Below are positions 8,642-22,320 of a stretch of 26,575 nt of DNA, piece after piece; positions within the stretch are counted from its first letter, which is position 1; every line of letters starts with the position of its first letter. A program made the translations under genes and the position numbers. The notes beneath the pieces were generated by a model that saw only the letters and a program-made list of their open reading frames with translations, did not search any database and was not told the origin of the DNA. The stretch spans positions 1 through 26,575 of the IMG/VR virus record IMGVR_UViG_3300042453_003902; one strand, given 5' to 3'. The DNA is from a virus.

Positions 8642-11383
8642 ATGATCACTAGAGAACGGGATGCAGGTAGGACGCTACCCAGCATTGTTGATAGCCAGGC
8701 CATGGGCCTTACCTTCAGCTTCAGGATTGCGGATACCAACGGGGTAAAGAACAGCAATACGAACTGGGTCTATTACGAACTGCCCGCATCTGCTGTTGTA
8801 AGCAGGAATCGTTCTTGTTCGTGCGATCAGATGTCGCAGCAAGTTAGTCTGACGATTCTTGAAGACCTGTTGCCCGATTACTACACCATCCAGCCTTTTA
8901 TGGTGCTGGAAATTGATTTGGTAGATAGGGATGGGTTTCGATGGCCGTACCATACCGGGCCTATCGATAGCATTAGAGAAAGCTACAACATTGTAGATAA
9001 CAGCATCAGAAAGACGCTTGAAATCAACTCGTTTGGTGTTTTGCAGAATACCAAGGATGCTTTCTACATTGCGCAATATTGGAGCCCTGCAACTAGCACT
9101 TTTACAGGCAACCTTACGGGCTATGCCACGGTAAAGCACTTCAGTTACACGGGCATTGGTCGCGTCCCTGGTACAGTGCAACTTATTGATGGCAGCATGA
9201 ACAGTGCGGAAGTGCTTACAACGGGCACTTTCCCTGGTGTTGTTGTTTCTACCAATAGCGATTTCAGTGCACCGTATACCCGTGGGGTACAGTACGAAAT
9301 AACCAATAGCGCAGGCGTGCTTCTGGTTCCAGCCACTAGCAAGAATGAGCCACTGTATATCAAGTGGATTATTACCGAACCAAATGCGCAGCTGTATATC
9401 AAATTCTGGACAGTGGACTATTTTGCTGTATCCAGAACCACGCTTGCTTCTTTTCCCGCAATTATTCGTCTGCCTGATTACTCGCAGGCATTTACTTACG
9501 CTTTGCAGCCGCCTTTAAAGCGGTATCTGTGGGATGACTTCGTTACTACCATTGCTAGTGGGGCAACCACTACAATCGTTACACCAATCGACACTTCAGG
9601 CTATAAACTCATTGCGGGTAACCCTGCTGGGGCTCCTACTGAATTTGTGGAATGGCAGCGGGCAGATACAGGCGCCAGGGAAGTTAGGCAGGTATCTAGC
9701 ATCAATGCGGGCACTGGGGCCGTCACTGTAAGCTCTGCTTTCTCTTCTGCGCCTGTTGCAGGAGATTACTTGCGTGTTGTGACGACCAGGCCGTTCCCTA
9801 GCTTTGAAAGATTCAATAACAACCAACTTTCTGGCCTACAGAACCAACCAACATTTGCGAAAACGTCTGGTGGTACGTCTTATTCAAAAGGTGGATTTGA
9901 AGTCAAACCAGAACAGGGGATCGTGGTTCCAACTTATGGAAATCACTTTGATAGTAGCACTGCCCTTGTATACGTTAGCAATCTGATCGTGAATAACGTA
10001 TCTGAAGGAACACTGGGGACAGATAACCGTGTTGAAACCCTGGTCTATAGTGCTTTGACGGATTATGTAGGAACTAGCAAGGTTCTTACGGGGAATCCTG
10101 CGGATGGTGCCAATTACTATGGCAACCATACCAAAATGAACGCATTTGTGAATGTCCTGGATGCTAGTGGCGAAACTAGCCAGGCATTGTTGCAAAAGGT
10201 AGCTACAAACGGATTTCCGCCAAACGGTAAGCTGTTCGATAGGCCAGACGGTACGGTATTGGTGGCTGCTTTGCGGCAGTCGCCAGTTAGCCAATACACC
10301 ATTGGCAATGTTATTTCAGTGTCGAAAGAAAACAGCCCTGCGCAGCCTACTGCTGTTACCGTCATCAGTAAATTCCCTGAAAGTCAGCGCCTTAATCGTG
10401 GTTTGTTCCAGGCGTGGGAAATTTCTGGTTCTAATATCGCAAACTTCAATTATTTGTTTGATGGTATCGAAAACGCAGACCCAACCAATACAGGAACCGA
10501 TAGTATATTTGCTTCCGTTGCTTTGCCTAACTTTGGCGACGTGCTTATTACTGTTCCTGACTTTGGCCCAATCGTTTTGGACCCATTAGACAAGATTGTA
10601 ATTAAAGGCCTAACTGGTGTTGTTGTTGCAAGCCTGTTGGTCAAAAACTCTAGCACTAATGCATATACGAAACAGAATTACTTTTGGGGAGGACAGCCCA
10701 AGGTAATTCAGCAGGATAGCCCGCTTGAAATCGATGCCAAGGATTTCCAGGCTGCATATCAGGCCTATAAAGGTGAAACTGGTTTTAGCCCTGGTCGTCA
10801 GGCCTTCATTTATTTGCGATTTGATAATACGAACCTGGTCCAGGTTGGCGGTAACAACATGGCTCCACGCATTACCGAAATAGAGCTATGGTCTAAATAC
10901 AATTGCAGTTGGACAGCACTGTTAACCGATGACTTGGTAGAAACCAACGACACTAGCACTTACCCGACAGGATGGAACAGCTATAGCTCTGTTACTAATG
11001 TCGGTTCTATCTGGTGGAAGCGTGGTGTTAGCATAACTAGCCACAAGTATATGAACCCTAGTGTCCTGAAACGAATCCAGCCCCTGTATAACGCAAACTG
11101 GACTAGCAACAGGCCTAGGATGACCGTAATTAACCAGACTAGAATCAGCATCACGGAATGTCGCCAGATTGCAGAGAGATATATCGATGAAATGGCTATC
11201 AAGTCTGCCGAGTATACGGTAGATGCTCTATTCGATCCGCGCGTGGAACTAGGGGACACTGTTACGGTAAATCTGCCTGATGGTTCGTGTTTGGACCTGT
11301 TTGTATGGCAGATTAGCGATAGTGGCGGGCCTGGCCCCATGATGGCCACCTATAAATTGGTGGATTATAGTGGGGTTGCCTAG
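8642..11383 (+). CDS. Tail hub / tail-tip protein candidate
   Basis: A 913-residue protein eight bases after the tape measure stop, start ATG 8642 with TAGGTGGG upstream. Residues about 60-130 (QVSLTILEDLLPDYY, MVLEIDLVDRDG, GPIDSIRESYN) look like the paired beta-barrel pattern of baseplate/tail hub proteins. A long middle of beta-rich sequence is followed by a C-terminal region (YTVDALFDPRVELGDTVTVNLPDG then WQISDSGGPGP) typical of the closing barrel of tail hub proteins. A tail-tip role therefore fits both sequence pattern and position. A Cys-x-Cys (SCSCDQ) near residue 59 is unusual. Confidence 0.55.
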   Translation: MITRERDAGRTLPSIVDSQAMGLTFSFRIADTNGVKNSNTNWVYYELPASAVVSRNRSCSCDQMSQQVSLTILEDLLPDYYTIQPFMVLEIDLVDRDGFRWPYHTGPIDSIRESYNIVDNSIRKTLEINSFGVLQNTKDAFYIAQYWSPATSTFTGNLTGYATVKHFSYTGIGRVPGTVQLIDGSMNSAEVLTTGTFPGVVVSTNSDFSAPYTRGVQYEITNSAGVLLVPATSKNEPLYIKWIITEPNAQLYIKFWTVDYFAVSRTTLASFPAIIRLPDYSQAFTYALQPPLKRYLWDDFVTTIASGATTTIVTPIDTSGYKLIAGNPAGAPTEFVEWQRADTGAREVRQVSSINAGTGAVTVSSAFSSAPVAGDYLRVVTTRPFPSFERFNNNQLSGLQNQPTFAKTSGGTSYSKGGFEVKPEQGIVVPTYGNHFDSSTALVYVSNLIVNNVSEGTLGTDNRVETLVYSALTDYVGTSKVLTGNPADGANYYGNHTKMNAFVNVLDASGETSQALLQKVATNGFPPNGKLFDRPDGTVLVAALRQSPVSQYTIGNVISVSKENSPAQPTAVTVISKFPESQRLNRGLFQAWEISGSNIANFNYLFDGIENADPTNTGTDSIFASVALPNFGDVLITVPDFGPIVLDPLDKIVIKGLTGVVVASLLVKNSSTNAYTKQNYFWGGQPKVIQQDSPLEIDAKDFQAAYQAYKGETGFSPGRQAFIYLRFDNTNLVQVGGNNMAPRITEIELWSKYNCSWTALLTDDLVETNDTSTYPTGWNSYSSVTNVGSIWWKRGVSITSHKYMNPSVLKRIQPLYNANWTSNRPRMTVINQTRISITECRQIAERYIDEMAIKSAEYTVDALFDPRVELGDTVTVNLPDGSCLDLFVWQISDSGGPGPMMATYKLVDYSGVA

Positions 11384-15254: not shown

Positions 15255-15259
15255 CATTA

Positions 15260-15291
15260 AAAGCCCCCTACCAATAAAGGCAGGGGGCTTT
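15260..15291. terminator. Bidirectional intrinsic terminator
   Basis: AAAGCCCCCT (15260-15269) and AGGGGGCTTT (15282-15291) form a perfect 10-pair stem with a 12-base loop, with A-rich sequence before and TTT at the end, so it can work in both directions. It lies between converging transcripts: the holin-like gene ending at 15254 and the primase-helicase gene ending at 15361. The remaining bases to 15360 hold only a short palindrome, GGAATTCAATTCC. Confidence 0.85.
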
Positions 15292-15360
15292 GTAACATCA
15301 GGTATTGAACAACCGGGTAGGAATTCAATTCCAGATGGTTCATTTATGTTATCACGGGCA

Positions 15361-17610: not shown

Positions 17611-17781
17611 TTAATTTGACTGATCCTTGTAGGTTCGCTCTATAGCAGACTTGATTAGCGTACCCTGCGGAACACCAGTGACTTCTGCTAGTTTGCGAAT
17701 GTAATCGATGGTATCTTCGTGAAGTTTGACAGCATAAAACTGCATTTCGGGCTTGCTAGGCCTACCGATCTTCTTTCTCAC
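17611..17781 (-). CDS. Ribbon-helix-helix DNA-binding protein (small)
   Basis: A 56-residue protein starting at GTG 17781 with AAGGTAGG upstream. After a basic start with GRPSKP (AT-hook-like) it reads MQFYAVKLHEDTIDYIRKL followed by GVPQGTLIKSAIERTY: one beta strand, a helix, a turn and a helix, as in CopG/Arc-type ribbon-helix-helix repressors. An internal ATG (residue 13) is possible but would drop the basic arm. It stands between the SSB-like gene and the primase-helicase and is a likely transcription or copy-control regulator acting as a dimer. Confidence 0.7.
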   Translation of the reverse strand: MRKKIGRPSKPEMQFYAVKLHEDTIDYIRKLAEVTGVPQGTLIKSAIERTYKDQSN

Positions 17782-17865: not shown

Positions 17866-18165
17866 TTAGAAGGGGAAATCCCGCTTGTTCTGGATGGCCT
17901 GGCGCTGCCGCTGGTTATTAGGGACATCCACTTTCACGGGCACAAAAGGTTCGGCAAGTTTCAGGATATGGGTAGGGGAACGATCATTGTTCGGTTCCCG
18001 GTTTGCCCAAATCTCGATTACGGCTTCTTCTAAGCCATATTCCACGGCTTCATTGATAACCTTCTGGATTTCATCGATTTTGACCTTGCTCTGAAGCAAA
18101 GTCAGGCCCCCCTTGGTTTGCTTCGACCACAGTCCGCAAATCCGCCATGACTTAGTTGCTGCCAT
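17866..18165 (-). CDS. Small replication protein with SSB-like C-terminal tail
   Basis: A 99-residue protein; GGAAGGGG precedes the ATG, which overlaps the end of the Bet/RecT gene by 14 bases. The N-terminal WRICGLWSKQTKGGLTLLQ and later AVIEIWANREPNNDRSPTHILKLAEPF form a short beta-strand pattern reminiscent of small OB-fold/DUF736-like phage proteins. The C-terminus ends RDFPF, close to the DDDIPF-type tip by which SSB proteins recruit partners. With Bet/RecT upstream and the primase-helicase downstream, single-strand binding is a reasonable inference; the acidic part of the tail is weak. Confidence 0.45.
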   Translation of the reverse strand: MAATKSWRICGLWSKQTKGGLTLLQSKVKIDEIQKVINEAVEYGLEEAVIEIWANREPNNDRSPTHILKLAEPFVPVKVDVPNNQRQRQAIQNKRDFPF

Positions 18166-19000
18166 TGTTATCCCCTTCCTGAATCGTTTTCAGGGCTTCA
18201 ATCAGGCTTTCGGCTTCCGTTACCGAAAGATCCTGTCGCTTGTTCTTTCCAGTGACCTGCTTCATATGAATCTGCATGCTGGCTTTGTCTAATTCCATGT
18301 CCCCAGAATTAAATACCGCTTTCCAGAGATAACCGATCTGCCGGGCCTGCTGTCCAGTGATCTTATCGTCCTGGCTATCCTGGGGGGCCTGGGTATCCTC
18401 TGATGCGTCCCGCTGCGCCTGGGTGGCTTGCTGGCCATCCTGGATGGCTTCAGGGGCATCCTGGCGGGCCTGGGTGGCCTGCTGCCCTGCCTGGGGCAAG
18501 GGGACAACATCCAGGCTATCCGCCTGCATCATTTCTTCTTGCGTGTAGATTCCGGATAGTTCACCAGGGAACGCCTTACGCAAAGCAAGGGCTTCCGCGC
18601 ATTTACCCAGCATGAGGAATGGCATTTTACGCCACATCGGGCTGTTCTGCTGCGCATACTCATTCCATCGGGCAGAAGCGGCAAATTGACCAATCTGGCC
18701 ATTAGGCAACAGCTTCAGAACGGTAACGCTGGCTTCCGTGGGGTAGCCGGTTTCGTGTACCTGGTATGCGGGATCGCTAGTTCCTGCATGCAGGCCAGTG
18801 CGGGCTGCAACCAATCGGTATCCATCGATACCCGTCTGGATAGACATCTTGCCGCCACGTTTAATCCCGTGCAACTGGCGCTGAAACAGATTCAAGCCAC
18901 TTGCCTTAGAAACCTCGATTAGATACTGGAATTCGGTGGCTGTCAGATCGGAAAACTGGCTTTTCAAAATATCCAGTTGCTCATTCGTGTAACTGATCAT
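18152..19000 (-). CDS. Single-strand annealing recombinase, Bet/RecT family
   Basis: The 282-residue product starts at ATG 19000, six bases after GGAGGG; an upstream in-frame extension lacks a ribosome-binding site. It shows the Bet-type core: ATEFQYLIEVSKASGLNLFQRQ, KMSIQTGIDGYRLVAARTG, and RWRKMPF-like / KCAEALALRKAFPGELSGIYTQEE. The protein pairs complementary single strands in phage recombination and replication. Residues about 169-212 are a Gln/Ala/Asp-rich linker with two copies of GQQATQA, followed by a helical C-terminal region (QARQIGYLWKAVFNS). No exonuclease partner is encoded beside it. Confidence 0.85.
   Translation of the reverse strand: MISYTNEQLDILKSQFSDLTATEFQYLIEVSKASGLNLFQRQLHGIKRGGKMSIQTGIDGYRLVAARTGLHAGTSDPAYQVHETGYPTEASVTVLKLLPNGQIGQFAASARWNEYAQQNSPMWRKMPFLMLGKCAEALALRKAFPGELSGIYTQEEMMQADSLDVVPLPQAGQQATQARQDAPEAIQDGQQATQAQRDASEDTQAPQDSQDDKITGQQARQIGYLWKAVFNSGDMELDKASMQIHMKQVTGKNKRQDLSVTEAESLIEALKTIQEGDNNGSN
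18365..18496 (-). repeat. Imperfect tandem repeat coding the Bet/RecT linker
   Basis: Repeated CCTGGGTGGC / CATCCTGG units encode two approximate copies of a GQQATQA-type peptide. The stretch is low complexity and a likely site of length change. Confidence 0.6.
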
Positions 19001-19005
19001 TTCGA

Positions 19006-19065
19006 ACCCTCCATTAGGGTAGAAAGAAACCCCATCCAGGGGGCAGTGGGTTGTTCTGGATGGGG
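19006..19065 (-). promoter_or_regulatory. Hairpin plus start-associated element before Bet/RecT
   Basis: On the minus strand CCCCATCCAG/CTGGATGGGG (19030-19039 with 19056-19065) forms a 10-pair stem; then ACCCTAATGGAGGGT (19020-19006) holds the Shine-Dalgarno site and can itself fold as ACCCT/AGGGT, six bases before the ATG. Confidence 0.7.
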
Positions 19066-19087
19066 CCATCTTCACTGTAGACCGATT

Positions 19088-19262: not shown

Positions 19263-19275
19263 CCCTCCTTCAGGG
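19263..19275 (-). promoter_or_regulatory. Variant start-associated element
   Basis: Read leftward CCCTGAAGGAGGG matches the CCCTAATGGAGGG element of five neighbours except in the loop; CCCT/AGGG can pair. No GC-rich hairpin precedes it here; the upstream gene stops one base before it. Confidence 0.55.
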
Positions 19276-19479
19276 TTACTTGCCGGTAGGCCGGATTTCA
19301 ACTTGCGAAAAGCCGTAAGTGATAGTGACTGTTTCGCCAGATTCCAGAATCGACTTAATTTCCGGGATGACTTCAGGATTAACGTAAATGTCAGCTTCGG
19401 CTATGCGGATTGCTTCGTCTATCGTGTTTGCATCGTAAGAATGATTCCACATGCCCCTGGTTGTTGTAACGAGAAACAT
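19276..19479 (-). CDS. Small hypothetical early protein
   Basis: A 67-residue protein, ATG 19479, with GGAGGG eight bases upstream and a TAATG overlap with the previous stop. It reads like a small alpha/beta protein: MFLVTTTRGMWNHSYDA, then a helix DEAIRIAEADIYV and strand TVTITYGFSQVEI. Family unknown. Translationally coupled to the membrane protein gene before it. Confidence 0.65.
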   Translation of the reverse strand: MFLVTTTRGMWNHSYDANTIDEAIRIAEADIYVNPEVIPEIKSILESGETVTITYGFSQVEIRPTGK

Positions 19480-20276: not shown

Positions 20277-20322
20277 CCCTCCATTAGGGTTGTAATGTGG
20301 CCCCAGCAACGGCCAGGGCCAC
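20277..20322 (-). promoter_or_regulatory. Hairpin plus start-associated element
   Basis: GTGGCCC (20297-20303) pairs with GGGCCAC (20316-20322), then read leftward CCCTAATGGAGGG (20289-20277) supplies the ribosome-binding site four bases before ATG 20272. Confidence 0.7.
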
Positions 20323-20648: not shown

Positions 20649-20693
20649 CCCTCCATTAGGGTTGCAGGTTCGGGGCCTGGATGGCCAGGCCCC
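20649..20693 (-). promoter_or_regulatory. Hairpin plus start-associated element
   Basis: GGGGCCTGG (20672-20680) and CCAGGCCCC (20685-20693) form a 9-pair stem with loop ATGG; the element CCCTAATGGAGGG (minus strand, 20661-20649) follows. The hairpin with its flanks (20669-20694) is identical to 21188-21213. Confidence 0.75.
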
Positions 20694-21166: not shown

Positions 21167-21212
21167 CCCTCCATTAGGGTTGGTAGATTCGGGGCCTGGA
21201 TGGCCAGGCCCC
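21167..21212 (-). promoter_or_regulatory. Hairpin plus start-associated element
   Basis: GGGGCCTGG (21191-21199) with CCAGGCCCC (21204-21212), loop ATGG, followed on the minus strand by CCCTAATGGAGGG (21179-21167), five bases before ATG 21161. Confidence 0.75.
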
Positions 21213-21224
21213 TATGGTTGCTGC

Positions 21225-21473
21225 TTAATCGACGGCCGAATAGTCACGCTGCCAGCGCACCATTTCCCGGTGTTCCTCACAAACGCGCTCATATTCGCGC
21301 TGCGCCAGGTCCATCTGGGGCCGGGTACGGTGGATGATGCCGAATTCCTCTGACTTCAAGTGATAGCTATAGCCGTTCGTGTAACCAACCACGGCTTCAT
21401 GAAAACCACGGAATTCATCCATGAAGATGACGCGGCTACCGGTATGGTACGGGTTCTTTTCGATGTAAGGCAT
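21225..21473 (-). CDS. Hypothetical first gene of the leftward early operon
   Basis: 82 residues from ATG 21473; as in the gene at 20272, the ATG four codons upstream belongs to the repeated element. The N-terminal half is beta-like (GSRVIFMDEFRGFHEAVVGYTNGYSYHL) and the C-terminal half a charged helix (MDLAQREYERVCEEHREMV). Family unknown. It is nearest the putative early promoter, so probably expressed first. Confidence 0.65.
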   Translation of the reverse strand: MPYIEKNPYHTGSRVIFMDEFRGFHEAVVGYTNGYSYHLKSEEFGIIHRTRPQMDLAQREYERVCEEHREMVRWQRDYSAVD

Positions 21474-21477
21474 TGTT

Positions 21478-21517
21478 CCCTCCATTAGGGATGCAGTATG
21501 GGTGGCCCCCTGGCCAC
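21478..21517 (-). promoter_or_regulatory. Hairpin plus start-associated element
   Basis: GTGGCC (21502-21507) pairs with GGCCAC (21512-21517). Then read leftward TCCCTAATGGAGGGA (21491-21477) can fold with T-A in place of the A-T closing pair found in other copies, an apparent compensatory change. Confidence 0.7.
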
Positions 21518-21524
21518 AAAATTA

Positions 21525-21554
21525 GTTGTAACAAAACCCTGGCCAGGCTGTCAA
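21525..21554 (-). promoter_or_regulatory. Leftward early promoter candidate with palindrome in spacer
   Basis: On the minus strand, TTGACA (21554-21549) is a perfect -35 and TACAAC (21530-21525) a 4/6 match to -10, with 18 bases between. The spacer contains the perfect 10-base palindrome CCTGGCCAGG (21538-21547), a possible operator. It would drive the operon beginning at 21473. Confidence 0.4.
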
Positions 21555-21562
21555 ATCCTGCT

Positions 21563-21658
21563 TTGGTCAAGTGACCGGTCAAGTCTTGGTCAAGTCTTGG
21601 TCAGCCTGTAGATCCGCTCCTGGTCAGGCTTTACAGGTTTGGTCAAGTTGGTCAATAG
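21563..21658 (+). repeat. Iteron array, left half
   Basis: Seven direct copies of a GGTCA core, most as TTGGTCAAG: cores start at 21565, 21577, 21588, 21599, 21622, 21641 and 21650. The first four are 11-12 bases apart, one helical turn, so a protein would bind one face of the DNA. Confidence 0.75.
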
Positions 21659-21756
21659 AAAAAGTAAAAAGTGTATATGACGCGACCCATTTAGTAAAAA
21701 AGTTTAATTAGAAAGCAGGTAGATCCCTGTAGAAAGAAAAGTTTTCGTCAAAACAC
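21659..21756. other. A-rich centre of the putative replication origin
   Basis: Between the two opposed iteron arrays lies a gene-free, A-rich stretch (for example AGAAAAAGTAAAAAGTGTAT and TAAAAAAGTTTAATTAGAAA) that would melt easily. With the arrays it forms an origin-like unit. Divergent promoters may also lie here. Confidence 0.55.
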
Positions 21757-21757
21757 A

Positions 21758-21839
21758 TGACCAACGTGACCAAAGCCGGGAAAGCCGCGCCATATCTCGA
21801 TTTACCGGATTTGACCAAAGACTTGACCAACTTGACCAA
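21758..21839 (-). repeat. Iteron array, right half (inverted)
   Basis: Five copies of TGACCAA, the reverse complement of the left-array core, start at 21758, 21767, 21812, 21824 and 21833, with 9- or 12-base spacing inside each cluster. An open frame from ATG 21757 would turn them into a repetitive LTK/LTN peptide, but it has no ribosome-binding site, so this is better read as noncoding DNA. Confidence 0.7.
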
Positions 21840-21900
21840 ATGTTTCGTTAGAACCGAATTTCTGGGGTATGATCATCGTGGAAGCATATTGGGGGCAATA

Positions 21901-22320
21901 ATGGACATCCATTGGGACGCCGAAAGCCAAATGCTGGTTATCCAGTCAGAAGACATCCCTGTTAGAACCAAACCACGGCCACGGGCCACGAAGTGGGGGG
22001 TTCATATGCCCCGGGAATATCAGGAATGGAAAGCCCTTATACGCCAGGCCATCGATACGACTATCGAGGAACGTTATTCAAAGAAGCAAACACTGTTCGG
22101 CAAACAGCCCGTTTCTATGTGGCTTCTGGTTGCTGCTAGCCGTGGGGATGCGGATAACGCAGCAGGCGGGATTATGGACGCCTTCACGGGCAGCGTTTGG
22201 GACGATGATCGCCAGGTAATGGAGCTCCATATCTGGAAAGTCCCTAAGAAGCAATTGGGCTATCACTGGAAATGCAGAGTGATGCCCAAAATAGCCACGT
22301 TTGATGACATCGGGCAATAA
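21901..22320 (+). CDS. rusA: RusA-like Holliday junction resolvase
   Basis: 139 residues from ATG 21901, chosen because GGGGG lies a few bases upstream and the length then fits RusA (about 120 residues); the in-frame ATG at 21757 has no such signal and runs through iterons. Family features are IPVRTKPRPRATKWG near the N-terminus and the acidic motif GDADNAAGGIMDAF ... VWDDDRQV. In E. coli RusA the metal ligands are in D-x-D-N and the later DD; those aspartates are present, but the lysine expected three residues after the Asn (K76 in E. coli) is Gly here. It would process branched DNA from replication or recombination before packaging, if active. Confidence 0.75.
   Translation: MDIHWDAESQMLVIQSEDIPVRTKPRPRATKWGVHMPREYQEWKALIRQAIDTTIEERYSKKQTLFGKQPVSMWLLVAASRGDADNAAGGIMDAFTGSVWDDDRQVMELHIWKVPKKQLGYHWKCRVMPKIATFDDIGQ

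Follow-up and report, generated by a model that had tools for sequence, protein, structure and literature searches.

A mirrored iteron array around a weak A-rich core as the probable replication origin of a phage encoding a PrimPol/D5 helicase

Background

The question raised by the present locus is whether a cluster of short opposed repeats, lying between two divergent gene blocks of a phage genome, is the site at which replication begins, or whether it serves as an operator, a packaging site or a partition site. The locus is part of an IMG/VR record of linear class, possibly incomplete, all 26,575 bases of which were analysed (hereafter referred to as the window). An earlier reading made from the letters alone (hereafter the sequence-only reading) had proposed the repeats as a replication origin candidate, with P4 as the nearest comparison. 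The repeats, the intervening core, the neighbouring genes and the predicted initiator protein were therefore examined, together with the corresponding regions of other phage loci that encode related helicases.

Methods

The comparative panel was drawn from viral_contigs (80 helicase loci) and from annotated phages (14 loci), with similar helicases merged; 55 loci having sequence past the 3' end of the helicase gene formed the non-redundant set. Two-strand 7-mer arrays were accepted by the detector when they exceeded 30 Markov shuffles. As a positive control, the detector recovers crr and ori of P4 (counts of 7 and 6, respectively, where simulations reached no more than 4). Duplex stability was computed from nearest-neighbour energies and protein models were made with AlphaFold2. 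The promoters listed in Table 1 were assigned by eye.

Genomic context of the region

The rightward gene block at the start of the record takes in the major capsid gene and, after it, the tail genes. A leftward block holds the genes for the PrimPol-helicase, a ribbon-helix-helix (RHH) regulator and RecT (18152-19075), and small genes up to 21485, while a second rightward block holds those for the RusA resolvase, a metallophosphoesterase, TerS (23781), the N-terminus of which is HTH-like, and TerL (from 26043). The repeats thus occupy the divergent gap between a leftward recombination/primase operon and a rightward resolvase/terminase operon (Table 1). A nucleotide search for close phage records found none, and tRNA and Rfam scans of the window gave no matches. 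TerL matches in genome contigs reach at most 37% and are spread over several unrelated phyla.

Two further observations concern the leftward block. RecT carries a C-terminal GemA-like stretch (PF06252, 6.5e-6, residues 220-299), and a leader is repeated before most of the genes (20277-20315, 20649-20687, 21168-21206 and 21478-21516, with a weaker copy at 19263-19301). On the - strand, this leader reads as a GGGGCCTGG...CCAGGCCCC hairpin followed by CCCTAATGGAGGG right before the ATG, with the Shine-Dalgarno sequence placed within the CCCT/AGGG stem; it is found in the relative L004 too.

The region had been described as gene-free provided that the resolvase starts at 21901, and this start is borne out by two relatives. 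The RusA of contig L005, 45% identical, aligns starting at the methionine encoded at 21901, and an in-frame TAA in contig L004 rules out a coding reading in which RusA would begin at the ATG at 21757 and the repeats would encode T-N-L-T.

Table 1. Coordinates of the repeat array and of the associated features in the window
Feature	Position	Strand	Remarks
PrimPol + DUF5906/D5 SF3 helicase + C-terminal winged helix	15361..17592	-	743 aa; proposed initiator
Helicase C-terminal 88 aa	15364..15627	-	winged helix H-E-H-H-E-E, pLDDT 83; proposed iteron-binding domain
Ribbon-helix-helix-like regulator	17611..17781	-	56 aa; phrog_3887 transcriptional regulator, 3e-8; just upstream of primase gene
86-aa protein	21225..21485	-	no assigned function; opens leftward operon; 89% identical in L004
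Likely leftward-operon promoter	21525..21554	-	TTGACA 21554-21549, 18 bp, extended -10 TGTTACAAC (TACAAC 21530-21525)
Left iteron array	21563..21656	+	seven GGTCA-core copies
Left 9-mers	21563-21571, 21575-21583, 21586-21594, 21597-21605, 21620-21628, 21639-21647, 21648-21656
Palindrome TGACCGGTCA	21572..21581	.	formed by copies 1-2; yields one opposite GGTCA
A-rich core	21657..21755	.	99 bases; low stability; proposed DNA-unwinding element
Possible extra degenerate iteron TTTTGACGAAAAC	21741..21753	-	core's right edge, oriented like left array
Right iteron array	21756..21839	-	five inverted copies
Right 9-mers	21756-21764, 21765-21773, 21810-21818, 21822-21830, 21831-21839
Possible rightward-operon -10, TATGAT	21868..21873	+	lacks a good -35
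RusA-type Holliday junction resolvase	21901..22320	+	PF05866, 4e-11; phrog_140, 4e-13; opens rightward operon

Organisation of the repeat array and its core

The array proved to be as described by the sequence-only reading, with an exact span of 21563-21839. GGTCA occurs seven times on the + strand (at 21565, 21577, 21588, 21599, 21622, 21641 and 21650), the first four copies lying about one helical turn apart (spacings of 12, 11 and 11 bp), and is followed by five inverted copies, seen as TGACC on the + strand (21758, 21767, 21812, 21824 and 21833). An extra TGACC at 21572, the back half of the palindrome, brings the total to 13 GGTCA/TGACC words in 280 bp, as against a maximum of 5 and a mean of 2.9 in 300 second-order Markov sequences, and no other 5-mer cluster of the record is as dense. 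When the array copies are combined into a 13-bp matrix, the word lengthens to ACTTGACCAAA.C, and the eight top matrix sites of the record all fall inside the array. The iteron word of about 9-13 bp can be written 5'-ACTTGACCAAA / TTTGGTCAAGT, and in the form TTGGTCAA it is a palindrome broken at the two central bases alone. The degenerate copy at the edge of the core is weak, since it scores 12.1 against 12.8 for the best non-array site of the record. Word-cluster, array and matrix scans of the record found this one array only.

The stretch of about 100 A-rich bases reported between the two arrays was likewise found: the 102 bp from 21656 to 21757 contain 46 A, 24 T, 19 G and 13 C (69% A+T). 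The weakest 60-bp and the weakest 100-bp segments of the entire 26,575-bp record both start at 21654.

The TTGACA and TACAAC hexamers of the likely leftward promoter are both retained in L004; a consensus promoter scan, which demands T at position 6 of the -10 box, found nothing. As the left array starts 9 bp from the -35 box TTGACA, and 28 bp separate the end of the right array from TATGAT, binding of an initiator would probably affect both divergent promoters, although this is the most weakly founded step of the scheme proposed below. GC skew, the examination of which had been suggested for an origin candidate, has its minimum at 20.5-21.5 kb and switches at the array site, a signal that is confounded because the switch in gene direction accounts for it equally well.

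Conservation in close relatives

The sequence-only reading had taken absence of the repeats from close relatives as an argument against an origin. Contig L004, which is 97% identical, keeps 11 of the 12 copies; copy 5 reads GTTCA and the last copy of the right array has moved by 1 bp. Identity to L004 amounts to 97.8% in the left array, 98.0% in the core, 100% at 21841-21900 and 90.4% in the right array, the low last value being due to the displaced copy. The left array and the core, although non-coding, are thus more alike than the adjacent leftward genes, which are 84-90% identical. The rightward genes are 95-98% identical, and the array is thus part of a slowly diverging block. Its conservation is real, but, coming from a single close relative, it counts as mild evidence only. 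A search of the L004 contig for a primase found none on the contig.

The nearest syntenic relative beyond L004, contig L005, has no GGTCA array in its equivalent gap of 150 bp. This gap (1027-1175) contains only AT-rich inverted repeats; the metallophosphoesterase of L005 is similar at 67% and its primase lies off the contig.

The predicted initiator

The proposed initiator is a protein of the leftward operon with Pfam matches to Prim-Pol (2e-10), DUF5906 (1e-16), RFX_DNA_binding (4e-6) and Pox_D5 (1e-4). A profile of this helicase and two relatives matches the SaPI5 Rep structure 7ola (7e-26), and the model of residues 430-743 (pLDDT 85.5) matches AsfvPrimPol (4e-15) and again the SaPI5 primase-helicase 7ola (E 6e-15). 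For the model of the C-terminal 88 residues, the solved matches are RFX5 (8zjr, 1.4e-5), RFX1 on its X-box (1dp7, 2.7e-5) and an archaeal Orc1/Cdc6-DNA complex (2qby, 0.011); the top ones are RFX DNA-binding domains, one of them complexed with its site. Cch2, the helicase of SCCmec and a relative belonging to the Primase_Cterm/D5 type, binds direct repeats of a putative origin through its C-terminal domain (PMC7581432). SaPI Rep apparently binds its iterons as two hexamers (PMC7581432), and the alpha protein of P4 carries a C-terminal winged helix (PMC4234260).

The start codon of the helicase gene is 4.0 kb from the array, which lies upstream of the gene. No array is present on the 3' side of the gene, where 15255-15360 leaves no space for a crr-like site.

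Survey of D5-helicase loci

Among the 55 non-redundant loci, 18 two-strand arrays are centred between -300 and +700 of the helicase 3' end, a density of 0.33/kb as compared with 0.015/kb elsewhere in the same loci (binomial P 4e-14). The latter value is close to that of 19 control contigs derived from TerL, with 5 arrays in 306 kb (0.016/kb). The detector found no array in 30 of the 55 loci, some of which (L013, L016 and L057) have short conserved sub-threshold arrays. A segment within the bottom 1% of stability of its own locus, usually the weakest of all, is contained in 24 of the 27 arrays (16% expected for random regions), and the cores are mostly 60-110 bp long. Perfect mirrors occur in L077 (----+++++), L052 (---++++), L081 (++++----) and L045 (-----++++), the last, like the array of the window, in a divergent-gene gap, 4.7 kb from its helicase gene. 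The words differ between loci (those of L077 are TTGGAACA), whereas the opposed geometry recurs.

The L013 group is of particular use, having TerL (about 64%), RusA and a primase-helicase (32% identical) in common with the window. Here the helicase gene is followed by an AT core with opposed GGGGACC/GGTCCC words on its two sides, and then by RusA; the RusA-adjacent site has accordingly been kept, with the helicase module co-directional in that group and inverted in the window. When L059 (9029-9300) is compared with L013, L016, L057, L061 and L062, all words are seen to have changed from GGGACC/GGTCCC to GGGACG/CGTCCC. Such concerted turnover is as expected if one protein reads all the words.

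Covariation between winged helix and word was present in a Mantel comparison of all loci (r 0.21, P 0.002) and lost in the strict set without L070, and hence it is not used as proof. The 4-mers GTCA and GACA are common to the words of 7 and 8 of the 27 arrays, respectively (null maximum averaging 4.4, 95th percentile 6), which is suggestive only. The RFX X-box half-site has the consensus RGYAAC. As a predictor of the array words, this pattern has P 0.006 against shuffles, yet it ranks 17 of 360 permuted patterns and is therefore a weak one.

Several other repeats were encountered in the survey. Ten same-strand copies in L043 lie inside an annealing-protein gene and were rejected as an origin, being a coding repeat. 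L025 (190-385) carries opposed GGTTACTCT / AGAGTAACC arrays inside an open frame that starts with a winged-helix-like segment; L036 (2309-2591), a Gammaproteobacteria MAG contig from the control set, has ten two-strand GTCATCA copies; and L097 (10445-10637) has fourteen CCATAGC copies in about 190 bp, all on the same strand, an orientation that is not origin-like. No array of the panel is denser than that of L088 (8029-8351), which has fourteen GGTAACA copies in mixed orientation and begins 6 bp past the helicase gene.

Possible functions of the array

The weak core, the winged-helix helicase and the similar arrays at homologous helicase loci make the replication origin the best-supported of the readings considered, as the sequence-only reading had proposed. 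It is likely that the 277-bp element is the iteron-DUE-iteron replication origin of this phage, opened by its PrimPol-D5 helicase. Counting against it are the position of the array away from the helicase 3' end, where most array-bearing relatives have theirs, the gap in L005 that is devoid of an array, the 30 array-negative helicase loci and the weak covariation of word and domain.

The main rival is an operator array, in which dimers of the RHH protein would bind cooperatively to the near-palindromic TTGGTCAA and silence both divergent operons. Small RHH regulators, for example those of plasmids, are well known to act on tandem short operators; here the regulator gene adjoins the primase gene, and the array, bordered by a likely promoter, separates two divergent operons. 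L005, however, encodes an RHH-like protein and yet has no such words in its equivalent gap, and tblastn detected no similar protein in the other array-bearing loci. An operator would also leave unexplained why the core is the weakest segment of the record and why the same geometry is found beside D5 helicase genes elsewhere. The support for this function comes down to the RHH gene being present, and it is considered improbable.

A packaging site of the pac or cosB type would be bound by TerS, encoded about 2 kb downstream. The HTH-like N-terminus of TerS agrees with such a role, as does the order array-RusA-TerS common to the window, L004 and the L013 group, but the arrays of L045, L052, L077 and others are located away from terminase genes, at the helicase 3' side or in other gaps. 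A long weak core is not known as a feature of packaging sites either, and packaging is very unlikely to be the function of the array. Least probable of all is a partition centromere of a phage-plasmid, with iterated sites of the ParR/ParB type: plasmid parC sites can likewise have a promoter flanked by opposed arrays of 10-12-bp repeats, but none of the window ORFs stood out as ParA/ParM-like, an absence that, in an incomplete record, does not amount to proof.

Proposed mechanism and wider significance

If the element is the replication origin, helicase protomers would bind the words via the C-terminal winged helix, which resembles those of RFX and P4 alpha, and the opposed arrays would set two helicase rings facing each other across the core of roughly 100 bp. 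The core would then melt and the PrimPol domain prime both strands, giving two forks and a bidirectional start. The same binding may plausibly influence both divergent operons, as considered above for the promoters.

The type of origin is already known, and the array adds one more case with a word of its own. The more interesting part is the pattern that recurs across phages. A wider proposal is that a mirrored arrangement of iterons around a weak core of about 90 bp is a general origin type of PrimPol/D5-helicase phages, with a drifting word, a fixed geometry and a mobile position. This wider proposal is tentative, and we would give it somewhat less than an even chance. If it is true, the word would drift together with the RFX-like winged helix, the geometry would stay because two helicase hexamers need to be loaded face to face, and the element would move between the helicase 3' end and gaps between divergent promoters, in which it may double as a two-way transcription switch. 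A literature search, which covered sources other than subscription journals, did not find the recurring pattern stated.

For an uncultured phage lineage, the analysis provides a concrete candidate origin, initiator and recognition word, all of which are testable. The comparison also supplies a simple rule for searches, namely to look near a D5 helicase gene for words arrayed on both strands around the weakest duplex. Some twenty phage loci with likely origins were located in this way, several of them annotated genomes of phages of streptococci, lactobacilli, Vibrio, Rhizobium and Morganella. Origin choice and melting by self-loading SF3 primase-helicases thereby become testable over many word variants.

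Comparison with known systems

The element would probably act in the manner of P4 ori and of the SaPI/SCC origins. Those broad features of iteron origins of the P4/SaPI type that can be read from sequence are present in the window, namely a primase-SF3/D5 helicase with a winged helix, a non-random cluster of words and an easily melted segment. The SaPI/SCC subtype is marked by an origin that immediately follows the helicase gene, a feature absent here, and the two iteron sites (ori and crr) of the P4 subtype are not seen in the record, which is possibly incomplete. With these two subtype features missing, the array is placed among the broad primase-SF3 helicase iteron origins and in neither subtype.

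The comparison with P4 made by the sequence-only reading holds for position, since P4 ori sits in the gap from which the alpha operon runs leftward and the late operon rightward, kilobases away from the alpha gene; in architecture the array is closer to the mirror arrays of D5-helicase phages. Both ori (9086-9809) and crr of P4, to which the alpha primase-helicase binds, carry short iterons of the GGTGAACAG type in both orientations, and alpha, too, combines a primase with an SF3 helicase and has a winged helix at its C-terminus. However, P4 ori lacks mirror symmetry, three copies being followed by one in the opposite orientation and then by two more, P4 requires crr, adjoining alpha, as a second site whereas the record has one site, the primase of alpha is of the Toprim type rather than PrimPol/AEP, and the word GGTCA of the window is different.

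SaPI and SCCmec elements likewise have a D5/Primase_Cterm helicase (Rep and Cch2, respectively), in their case with an iteron-binding C-terminal domain, and the window model matches 7ola of SaPI5, but their origins adjoin the helicase gene on its downstream side, while the array of the window is in another gap, 4 kb upstream. The archaeal plasmid pRN1 has a small regulator gene (orf56) directly upstream of the gene for a PrimPol-SF3 helicase (orf904) with a C-terminal winged helix (PMC4234260), an arrangement similar to that of the window; its origin differs in being a 100-nt stem-loop, free of iterons, downstream of orf904.

The closest likeness in architecture is to the mirror arrays of Lacticaseibacillus phage C3.1 (L052), Morganella phage Henu15 (L045) and two IMG/VR loci (L077 and L081), which have opposed words around a 60-150-bp core that holds the weakest duplex of the locus or one nearly as weak. 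They differ from the window in their words (ATCCGTCAC, TGCAACA, TGGAACA and TGTCACA) and in that most of them adjoin their helicase gene at its 3' end, and the records viewed carry no origin annotation for them; what they share with the window is the opposed geometry around a weak core.
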